Of a stretch of DNA of 64,000 nt, positions 20,006-22,705 are shown one piece after another. Positions within the stretch are counted from its first letter, which is position 1, and the number at the start of each line of letters is the position of its first letter. The DNA comes from Desulfolutivibrio sulfoxidireducens (GTDB lineage: Bacteria > Desulfobacterota > Desulfovibrionia > Desulfovibrionales > Desulfovibrionaceae). The translations under genes were made by a program, and so were the position numbers. The notes beneath the pieces are model-generated. The model was not told the DNA's origin and did no database searches. It saw nothing but the letters and a program-made list of their open reading frames with translations. The DNA lies in the NCBI RefSeq assembly GCF_013376475.1, contig NZ_CP045508.1, positions 248,001 to 312,000 of the forward strand, in the 5' to 3' direction.

Positions 20006-20461
20006 CTACTCCGTATAGGGCCGCCGCCCCGACCACCTGGCCCACAGGACCACGCCAAGCAGGACCACGGCCAAAAACAGGTGCGACCAGTCCACCAGCA
20101 TGACCGTCACCTCGCCCATGTACACGCTTTGCAGGTTCTTGATCATGCGCACCGCGCCGGTGGCGACGAGCCCCGCGTACAGGGCCACCCGGACCATGCC
20201 CGAGCCGGTCAGGGGATGCCCGGAACGCCAGGTCAAAAAGCGGGAGGCGGCCAGATACGCGCCCAGGAACAGGAACACGGCGGCCAGGGCGTAGTGAAGC
20301 ATGTGGGTGAACACGAAATCGCCAAGCCAGCCGAAGCCCGGGACGTCGGCGATGTAGTAGCGGCTGAATATCGGCATCTGGGCCACGCCGGTCAGCCCCA
20401 GCCCGAAGACCGTCACGGCGAAGGCCCGTTTCATCCAGGGGGACACGGGGCGGCTATCCAT
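20006..20461 (-). CDS. four-helix cytochrome b-like membrane subunit
   Basis: The protein has 151 residues with four hydrophobic helices. Histidines in FTHMLHYALA and WSHLFLA are placed as possible heme b ligands, as in small membrane quinone-reacting subunits. The ATG follows GAGGAG and overlaps the ferredoxin gene stop by eight bases. It is therefore the likely membrane anchor and electron exit or entry of a two-subunit periplasmic redox module with the upstream Tat-exported ferredoxin. Heme content and quinone reactivity are inferred from topology. Confidence 0.78.
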   Translation of the reverse strand: MDSRPVSPWMKRAFAVTVFGLGLTGVAQMPIFSRYYIADVPGFGWLGDFVFTHMLHYALAAVFLFLGAYLAASRFLTWRSGHPLTGSGMVRVALYAGLVATGAVRMIKNLQSVYMGEVTVMLVDWSHLFLAVVLLGVVLWARWSGRRPYTE

Positions 20462-21431
20462 TGTTTTTCTCCTCGGCGTCCCGGGCGCGTTTTCCGGCCC
20501 GAAGCACCGCCCCGGCCACGGCGGCGATGGGGGCCACCACCACGGCGGCGGCCAGGCTCGATTCGAAGGACATGGCGTCGGCCACGGGCTTAAGCGTGGG
20601 GCGGCCCGGTCCCGGGGGCGAGGCGGCCTCGATGAGCTCGAAGGGCACGGGGGAGACGTAGATGGTGTTGGTGCCGCCGTTTTCCGTCTCGCCGTAGATG
20701 AAGCCGTTTATGGACGCGGCCAGTTCGTGGGCCTTTTTCACGATTTCGTCCCGGGGGCCGATCTGTTGCACCTCGTTGGGGCAGGCCTCGATGCAGGCCG
20801 GCACGCCGCCGGCCCGGACCCGGTCGTAACAGCGGTCGCACTTGTACATGACCCCGTTCCCGGCCAACGACGGCAACAGGTCCAGGTACAGCCCGACGCC
20901 GGTCTGGCGCTGGGGGATGGACCAGGGGCACACGGTCTTGCACTTGGCTCCGCCCAGGCAGATGTCGGTGTTGATGCGCACGGACCCGTTTTCGGTCTTG
21001 GCCGCCGCGCCCCAGGGACACAGGTTGGCGCAGGGGGGCTTTTGGCAGTGCATGCAGCGCCTGGGCATGTGCACGTCCAAGGTCCTGCCCTGGTAGGTGA
21101 CGGCGGCCGACTGGATGAACAGCCAGTTATACGGGGTAAGACGGTCTTCCACGTCGCGTTTGTCCGACCAGTCCTCCACCTTGACCCGGCTCGGATACAT
21201 GGGGGGGTAGGGCTTCTCGGGCTCGGGATAGCGTGCGGCGTTGGCCTCGTGGCAGGCCTGGACGCAGGCCCCGCAGCCGATACACTTGGAGAGATCGAAC
21301 AGGGTGGCCAGGACCTGGTCCTTCCCGTCCGCCCCGTTGGCCGCGGTCGGTGCGGCCAGGCCGGGCACGGCGGCGGTGGCGGCGGCGGCCCCGGCGAGTC
21401 CGAGGGTTTTCAAGAAGGTGCGTCGTTTCAC
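20454..21431 (-). CDS. Tat-exported four-cluster ferredoxin subunit (HmcB/FdhB-like)
   Basis: The protein has 325 residues and starts with GTG behind AAGGA. A twin-arginine leader (KRRTFLK) precedes an Ala-rich hydrophobic stretch. Four cysteine groups for [4Fe-4S] clusters follow: CIGCGACVQAC, CMHCQKPPCANLC, CLGGAKCKTVC and CDRCYDRV...CIEAC. A C-terminal hydrophobic helix (about 295-315) could anchor it in the membrane. The layout matches ferredoxin subunits of Hmc-type and formate-dehydrogenase-like complexes of sulfate reducers. No catalytic molybdenum subunit or multiheme cytochrome is adjacent, so it probably serves another partner. The HesB-like gene upstream may help load its clusters. 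Confidence 0.88.
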   Translation of the reverse strand: MKRRTFLKTLGLAGAAAATAAVPGLAAPTAANGADGKDQVLATLFDLSKCIGCGACVQACHEANAARYPEPEKPYPPMYPSRVKVEDWSDKRDVEDRLTPYNWLFIQSAAVTYQGRTLDVHMPRRCMHCQKPPCANLCPWGAAAKTENGSVRINTDICLGGAKCKTVCPWSIPQRQTGVGLYLDLLPSLAGNGVMYKCDRCYDRVRAGGVPACIEACPNEVQQIGPRDEIVKKAHELAASINGFIYGETENGGTNTIYVSPVPFELIEAASPPGPGRPTLKPVADAMSFESSLAAAVVVAPIAAVAGAVLRAGKRARDAEEKNNG

Positions 21432-21530
21432 GGATGGATCCTTGTTTTGTGATGGGGCCGGCGCCGGCCGTCCCCACCTGGTTGCCGGCGGGAGTCCTTG
21501 CCGACCGTGTACCGGGTATGCGGCGTCATG

Positions 21531-21887
21531 TCAGCACCCGGAGCCGAAGTGCTGGCTTTGCAATTGAAAATGTCCCGCCGCGTCCAGATCGATGCCCACC
21601 AGGCCGATATCCTGGGATACGAATCTGTTGATGCATATCCGGAAGCGACCGCACGGGACAACGATATCGTCAGGGGCCGGTTCGTCCAGAACCAGGCCGA
21701 GCTTGGGGCCGAATCAGCCGGGGGTGGCGATGACCCGCACATGGCGCGTTTGCTCGTCCGGGAACAGCCCCTCCAGCTCGTGCAAGGCGTTCGGGCTTAT
21801 GCGGACGAACTCTTCCTCCTCCGGGCCGGCGTTCGCGGCCGGGGTGCGATCCGAAACGTCGTCGCGGTGGTCGTGCGGCATTGTCAT
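21531..21887 (-). CDS. HesB/IscA-like selenoprotein (in-frame UGA read as selenocysteine 58)
   Basis: Conventional reading stops at codon 58, but the frame continues to a second TGA giving 118 residues. The ATG has a GGGAG site six bases upstream. After VRVIATPG the UGA at 21716-21714 is followed by FGPKLGLVLDEPAPDDIV, the usual A-type iron-sulfur carrier sequence in which the position of the UGA holds the first conserved Cys. The chain ends in GSGC. A hairpin at 21677-21695 fits a bacterial SECIS element. HesB-like selenoproteins are a known family. The gene lies about 100 bases upstream of the four-cluster ferredoxin and is probably co-transcribed with it. Standard gene callers would miss or truncate it. 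Confidence 0.82.
21677..21695 (-). promoter_or_regulatory. bacterial SECIS hairpin inside the HesB-like gene
   Basis: Counting from the UGA, 25 bases separate it from a five-base apical loop (TGGAC) closed by a seven-pair stem CTGGTTC/GAACCGG with one G-U pair. The spacing (16-37 expected), stem length and a G in the first two loop positions all satisfy the published bacterial SECIS rules. It would recruit SelB and Sec-tRNA to the UGA. Confidence 0.7.
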
Positions 21888-21966
21888 GGCGTCTCCCGTT
21901 TGCTAAGAGGATAAGCGCCGATTCGGCGGCGGCGACCCCTTCCTACCCTGACGGACGCACAAGACA

Positions 21967-21980
21967 TTGACCGCGATCAA
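21967..21980. promoter_or_regulatory. FNR-type operator in the HesB / Crp-Fnr divergent region
   Basis: TTGACCGCGATCAA differs by one base from the FNR consensus TTGAT-N4-ATCAA. It is 20 bases before the Crp/Fnr gene and 80 bases from the HesB-like start on the other strand, so it could allow autoregulation and control of the redox operon. The site is visible; the binding protein is inferred from its neighbour. Confidence 0.6.
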
Positions 21981-22000
21981 CACCAGGACGTGATTTGTCC

Positions 22001-22705
22001 ATGCCCGACCCAGCGCTTCTCTTGGTTCTCAAATCCTCGCCATTTTTCCAGGAACTGCCGGCCGGCCAACTGGAACGCCTGGCCCGGGGGGCCGTGGCCC
22101 GGACCTATGCCGCCAGGGCCCGGGTGGCCTCGGAGAGCGAGGCCGTGCGCGGTTTTTTTTTGGTGCTTACGGGCAAGGTGAAGCTTTTCAAGCTCTCGGA
22201 GGACGGCAAGGAGCAGACCCTCTACGTCTTCGGTCCGGGCGAGCCCTTTTGCCTGGGTTCGCTTTTCGGGGAGGGCCGTTTTCCGGCCCATGCCCAGACG
22301 CTGGCGCGCAGCCGGCTGGTGTTTTTCTCCGGCGAGGTCCTGGAGGACATGGCCCGGCGGGACCCCTCGATCCTCTTTCACTTCCTGCGGGTGGTGTCCA
22401 GGCGGCTCAAGGAGGCCATGGAAATGATCGAGTCCTTGTCGCTTCGGGGCCTGCCCGGGCGCATCGCCGGTTTTTTGCTGCACGCCCGGGAAGAGGACCG
22501 GGACGGCCGGCGTCTGGTGGCCCTGGGGATCAGCCAGCGGGAGTTGGCCAAGATCGTGGGGGCCACGCCCGAGGCCTTGTCCCGGGCGCTTGGGCGCATG
22601 GGCCGCCAGGGCCTGGTGCGGGTGAGCGGCCGGGAGATCGAGATTCGCGATCGGGCGGGTCTTGCGGCCGTGGCGGCCTCGGACCGGGAGGGGCCGGGGC
22701 GGTGA
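22001..22705 (+). CDS. Crp/Fnr-family transcription regulator
   Basis: The protein has 234 residues. It has a cyclic-nucleotide-type beta barrel (about 10-125; GKVKLFKLSEDGKEQTLYVF, GEPFCLGSLF), a dimerisation helix and a C-terminal winged HTH (about 165-215) with the recognition segment ISQRELAKIVGATPEALSRAL. There is no N-terminal Cys cluster for an oxygen-sensing [4Fe-4S] centre, so it is closer to DNR/HcpR-like members than to FNR itself. A TTG at 21995 has better Shine-Dalgarno spacing and is an alternative start. It is divergent from the HesB-ferredoxin operon and probably controls it through the FNR-like box between them. Confidence 0.88.
   Translation: MPDPALLLVLKSSPFFQELPAGQLERLARGAVARTYAARARVASESEAVRGFFLVLTGKVKLFKLSEDGKEQTLYVFGPGEPFCLGSLFGEGRFPAHAQTLARSRLVFFSGEVLEDMARRDPSILFHFLRVVSRRLKEAMEMIESLSLRGLPGRIAGFLLHAREEDRDGRRLVALGISQRELAKIVGATPEALSRALGRMGRQGLVRVSGREIEIRDRAGLAAVAASDREGPGR

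Follow-up and report, generated by a model that had tools for sequence, protein, structure and literature searches.

HesB-like selenoproteins have been predicted for some twenty years, and a 2006 publication names Desulfovibrio vulgaris and D. desulfuricans as carrying them (PMC1794560). In Methanococcus maripaludis, mutagenesis and 75Se labelling led to the identification of one, whose function is called unclear (PMC11097638). For bSECIS hairpins, published rules ask for a loop of 3–9 nt, a G at loop position 1 or 2, a spacing of 16–37 nt and an MFE of -7.5 or lower (PMC13188914). In the octaheme-cytochrome (Ohc) complex of Desulfovibrio, ohcB can remain without the other members (PMC4641369).

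We analysed a window of 64,000 nucleotides, that is, the whole stretch of DNA presented here, in which a gene named HesU here (Table 1) lies on the minus strand. Its identity as a selenoprotein gene, which includes a candidate bSECIS hairpin, is strongly supported. That HesB-like selenoproteins were already known was acknowledged in a preliminary description of this DNA, and rightly so: the family is established (PMC1794560), and the host holds a second member. We regard HesU not as a new class of selenoprotein, but as a divergent, rare form of this one.

Table 1. Features of the HesU locus (positions in the window).
Feature	Position	Strand	Details
Small membrane protein	20006..20461	-	151 aa; overlaps the end of the ferredoxin gene; His56 and His127 invariant
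Tat-exported multi-cluster ferredoxin, HmcB/OhcB-like	20454..21431	-	15 Cys; RRTFLK signal
HesB-like selenoprotein gene (HesU)	21531..21887	-	118 aa; Sec58; stop TGA 21533-21531
bSECIS hairpin	21675..21698	-	Basis: fold, UGA versus Cys forms, compensatory changes
Hairpin core	Stem 21693-21689 / 21683-21679; loop 21688-21684	-	5-bp stem GGUUC/GAACC; loop UGGAC
Sec UGA, codon 58	21714..21716	-	Within UxGP motif; invariant in four genomes
Palindromic Crp/FNR-type site	21967..21980	.	TTGATCGCGGTCAA (read on -); regulator/HesU intergenic region
Divergent Crp/FNR-family regulator	21995..22705	+	PF00027 and PF13545

Results

The HesU frame begins with an ATG at 21887, just 5' of which lies a Shine-Dalgarno-like stretch (GGGAG), and is open on the minus strand to 21531 when TGA is read as U, with a single in-frame UGA. 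Its translation (MTMPHDHRDD...RHVRVIATPGUFGPKLGLVLDEPAPDD...QHFGSGC) contains the UxGP motif at the first A-type Cys position, as PGUFGP. An A-type frame running through a UGA at the first Cys had been proposed in the preliminary description, and both the coordinates and the conservation of orthologues past the UGA agree with this proposal. The UGA is kept in the orthologues of two congeneric genomes (G094 and G093, 67–68% identical to HesU in one comparison and 63–68% in another) and of a genome from another genus (G338, 36% and 31% in the same two comparisons). In a small, three-way comparison, dN of the orthologues was 0.17–0.26 before the UGA and 0.12–0.22 after it, and exceeded 2.3 past the second TGA; because conservation collapses there, the second TGA is the true stop. 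Homologues with a true stop and unconserved downstream sequence had been named as evidence that would speak against a selenoprotein; those found are instead conserved beyond the UGA. The pN/pS ratios themselves (0.3–0.8) indicate only moderate constraint. C79 and C85 are not conserved, which leaves Sec58 and Cys118 as the sole conserved Sec/Cys residues in the four-genome alignment. We also considered the second, C-terminal UGA as a Sec codon and rejected it, the sequence beyond being unconserved.

The host genome, a single contig of 4.16 Mb, was searched for the Sec machinery, as had been suggested earlier, and all four components are present: selA (610.3 bits), selB (379.5 bits), selD (336.6 bits) and the tRNA-Sec gene selC (84.1 bits). 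The selD gene itself contains an in-frame TGA.

The hairpin described previously, with its apical loop 25 bases from the UGA, is borne out by folding and by family conservation: a loop of 5 nt with G at position 2 starts 25 nt past the UGA, in agreement with the bSECIS rules of PMC13188914. The whole 47-nt fold has an energy of -15.1 kcal/mol, and the best constrained hairpin -14.2 kcal/mol. Such folding energies are not unusual for GC-rich DNA (50 of 200 shuffles fold equally well), UGA and Cys forms are not told apart by constrained hairpin energies (p 0.23), and an Rfam scan of 21400-22000 returned chance-level matches only. The hairpin is unusual by its position and conservation rather than its energy, and pairing at a fixed position is the one test that separates the two forms. 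For it we compared 106 distinct members of the family, drawn mainly from Desulfovibrionales. With G-U pairs accepted, every stem position pairs in 49 of 49 UGA forms and in 4 of 57 Cys forms, with a Fisher p of 3e-24 that is optimistic as the sequences are related; 48 of the 49 UGA stems are Watson-Crick throughout, and slid-position controls of stem pairing fail. The tandem type has GGCUC/GAGCC as its stem, the HesU clade GGUUC/GAACC and two Clostridia-type loci UGUUC/GAACA, with compensated changes from C-G to U-A and from G-C to U-A, and there are no broken pairs in 22 rows. With the peptide fixed and local codon use assumed, a 5-bp Watson-Crick stem within LVLDEP has a chance of ~0.6%, mainly because GTT makes up 3% of local valine codons. 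UGA forms sharing the hairpin loop also occur in MAGs of Tissierellia (L124), Eubacteriales (L125) and Deltaproteobacteria (L123), the stem being compensated in L124 and L125; no ferredoxin was recognised among the listed neighbour ORFs of L123. UGA and Cys paralogues amount to a clean natural experiment, which shows selection on the hairpin to be confined to genes with a UGA at this codon.

HesU scores below the curated cut-offs of all three related profiles: NF038090 (IscA_HesB_Se; E 3.8e-9, 36.8 bits, cut-off 85), TIGR01911 (HesB_rel_seleno; 16.3 bits, cut-off 66.35) and TIGR00049 (15.9 bits, cut-off 58.8); its orthologues likewise remain below those of NF038090 and TIGR01911. No Pfam family matches HesU, PF01521 has no members in the whole host genome, and no relatives were found in viral contigs. 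An AlphaFold2 model built from 48 relatives (pLDDT 86.5) predicts an IscA-like, A-type fold, with Cys118 in a low-confidence tail. Its match to IscA with a [2Fe-2S] cluster (1x0g) has a Z of 11.6 over 92 residues at 2.7 A, and those to E. coli IscA (1s98) and SufA (2d2a) have Z values of 10.6 and 10.4. The C-terminal CGC is altered to SGC (AGC in G338), which leaves one of the two classical C-terminal Cys residues, and the classical three-Cys cluster site (C...CGC) is therefore absent. Found in 4 of 348 genomes of the order Desulfovibrionales, the HesU clade of four rows is separate from the tandem type with support of 95/95, with G338 on a long branch. Tandem Sec/Cys HesB-like pairs are common in the family and show no obvious shared gene context in five loci inspected by eye. 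The host has a canonical pair of this kind, one UGA and one Cys form, at G000:C1:3482258-3482970 (L060, L050), ~3.2 Mb from HesU by record coordinates, with NF038090 scores of 117.6 and 120.7 bits.

The preliminary description also observed that HesU precedes a Tat-exported ferredoxin gene. This arrangement is real and kept in four genomes of two genera, the host (G000), G094, G093 and G338 sharing the order of divergent Crp/FNR-type regulator, HesU, Tat ferredoxin and 151-aa membrane protein. A TTGAT-N4-RTCAA palindrome lies at the same place between the regulator and HesU in 4/4 genomes and, with its flanking TG, is the sole exact copy in the host genome. In G338 a second copy precedes an octaheme gene. 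In G094 and G093 (L168 4002, L169 2189), a second TTGATCCGGATCAATG palindrome is close to Sulf_transp (YeeE/YedE-type) genes, which lie near apparent dsrO/dsrP and are a possible second member of the regulon.

The ferredoxin matches HmcB (NF045715, E 7.8e-44) and PF10518 (E 5.8e-4), in both cases below cut-off. Of the four clusters in its earlier description, three have full 4-Cys motifs, and the fourth motif has only three Cys (CLGGAKCKTVC); four clusters are likely, though not as four literal 4-Cys sites. His56 and His127 of the membrane protein, which are invariant in 31/31 homologues, are a putative ligand pair for heme b. This protein has no Pfam or NCBIfam match above a curated cut-off and occurs in about half of the order's genomes.

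Counted via the membrane protein, the ferredoxin/membrane-protein module is present in 171 of 348 genomes of the order. HesU was beside it in none of 20 sampled loci, and the module was linked to genes for an octaheme cytochrome and a cytochrome b in 8 of these 20 and in G338, where the cluster runs on into an octaheme cytochrome with 8 CXXCH motifs and then a cytochrome b. At some linked loci a PAS-like regulator, identified by eye, is encoded divergently. We read the ferredoxin and the small membrane protein as a putative OhcB-like part of the octaheme-cytochrome complex, in keeping with the Ohc complex of Desulfovibrio (PMC4641369). In the host, genes for an octaheme cytochrome c (PF11783, 8 CXXCH) and an OhcC-like cytochrome b follow each other at G000:C1:3248958-3251344 (L166 3959-6345). 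The two genes are together and, by record coordinates, ~3 Mb away from the HesU operon, to which they are not linked; upstream of them there is no recognisable regulator site, and we read this locus as the split-off remainder of the Ohc cluster.

Discussion

Incorporation of Sec at codon 58 of HesU is, on the sequence evidence, almost certain. Were the UGA a real stop, with the conservation behind it accidental or left by a pseudogene, the hairpin energy, which taken alone is unexceptional (z -0.57), would be easily accommodated, but the likeness of dN before and after the UGA, the collapse of sequence conservation only past the second TGA, the conservation of the hairpin only among UGA forms and the complete Sec machinery of the genome make this exceedingly improbable.

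For the function of HesU, we favour delivery of a cluster to the ferredoxin, or its repair, by way of Sec58 and Cys118, and assign a probability of roughly 0.4 to this mechanism as a whole. On the sequence evidence, UGA58 is decoded as Sec via the in-frame hairpin and host SelA, SelB, SelC and SelD. Acting at TTGAT-N4-RTCAA, the Crp/FNR-type regulator would lead to co-expression of HesU with the OhcB-like Tat ferredoxin and the membrane protein. An Fe-S cluster or its iron/sulfur precursor may be held or reduced in the cytoplasm by Sec58 and Cys118, probably across a dimer, and could then serve to fill or repair the ferredoxin prior to its export by Tat; once in the periplasm, the ferredoxin would work with OhcA, the octaheme cytochrome, and OhcC, the cytochrome b. 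Selenium-dependent delivery to the ferredoxin, as put forward in the preliminary description, is plausible, but it is not generally required, because many, indeed most, genomes of the order with the module lack HesU. More tentatively, HesU might be a dedicated selenium-dependent maturation factor for one exported respiratory Fe-S subunit. It would then be a specialised Sec-containing A-type carrier that a few sulfate reducers have joined to the OhcB branch and placed under Crp/FNR-type control, and, if true, this would provide HesB-like selenoproteins with their first defined client.

The residues conserved in HesU could also suit a redox enzyme with an A-type fold rather than a carrier, with a reversible selenenylsulfide between Sec58 and Cys118 that reduces disulfides, persulfides or oxidised clusters in the neighbourhood of the exported ferredoxin. 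In its favour, the protein has a single conserved Sec and a single conserved Cys, only one Cys is left of the C-terminal CGC pair, and most selenoproteins of prokaryotes are considered to have redox roles (PMC13188914, PMC9312934). We nevertheless find this doubtful, as the predicted fold is that of IscA, including its [2Fe-2S] form, and not thioredoxin-like, and as the position of Cys118 in the low-confidence tail of the model makes its pairing with Sec58 putative. A role unrelated to the ferredoxin, in the handling or sensing of iron, sulfur or selenium, with shared Crp/FNR-type control as the only link, seems somewhat less doubtful, though still unlikely. It would fit with the absence of HesU from most ferredoxin/membrane-protein loci, with the similar palindrome before a Sulf_transp gene near apparent dsrO/dsrP in G093 and G094, and with the second HesB-like selenoprotein and its tandem Cys paralogue, which are encoded elsewhere in the host away from any such ferredoxin. 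Against it, the genes stay in the same order and close together in two genera despite the low protein identity to G338, suggesting selection for a link between HesU and the ferredoxin. The conserved operon names a candidate client, the ferredoxin, and a candidate regulator, making the function of a HesB-like protein directly testable, and the presence in it of an exported Fe-S respiratory subunit hints at what HesB-like selenoproteins might serve.

As far as the literature shows, in a search of mainly open-access papers, what is new here is the divergent clade in 4 of 348 genomes and its OhcB-like operon with a regulator site. With the A-type carriers IscA, SufA and ErpA (PF01521, TIGR00049), HesU has its predicted fold in common, but it carries Sec for the first Cys and SGC for CGC. 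The UxGP motif with Sec for the first Cys is found equally in TIGR01911 HesB-like selenoproteins (PMC1794560, PMC13188914), with which HesU also shares a short tail whose last residue is its single Cys, as in the Clostridia-type loci L124 and L125. The tandem Sec/Cys IscA/HesB selenoproteins of Desulfovibrionales (NF038090), 26–41% identical to HesU, likewise agree in their UxGP Sec, their bSECIS and its distance, whereas HesU differs in having no Cys-rich C-terminal tail and no tandem Cys paralogue, and in being part of a ferredoxin operon. Compared with the Ohc complex of Desulfovibrio (PMC4641369), whose OhcB the ferredoxin resembles and whose octaheme and cytochrome b genes adjoin the ferredoxin gene in other genomes, the host operon is split from these two genes, has a Crp/FNR-type instead of a sigma54-dependent regulator, and has gained a selenoprotein.
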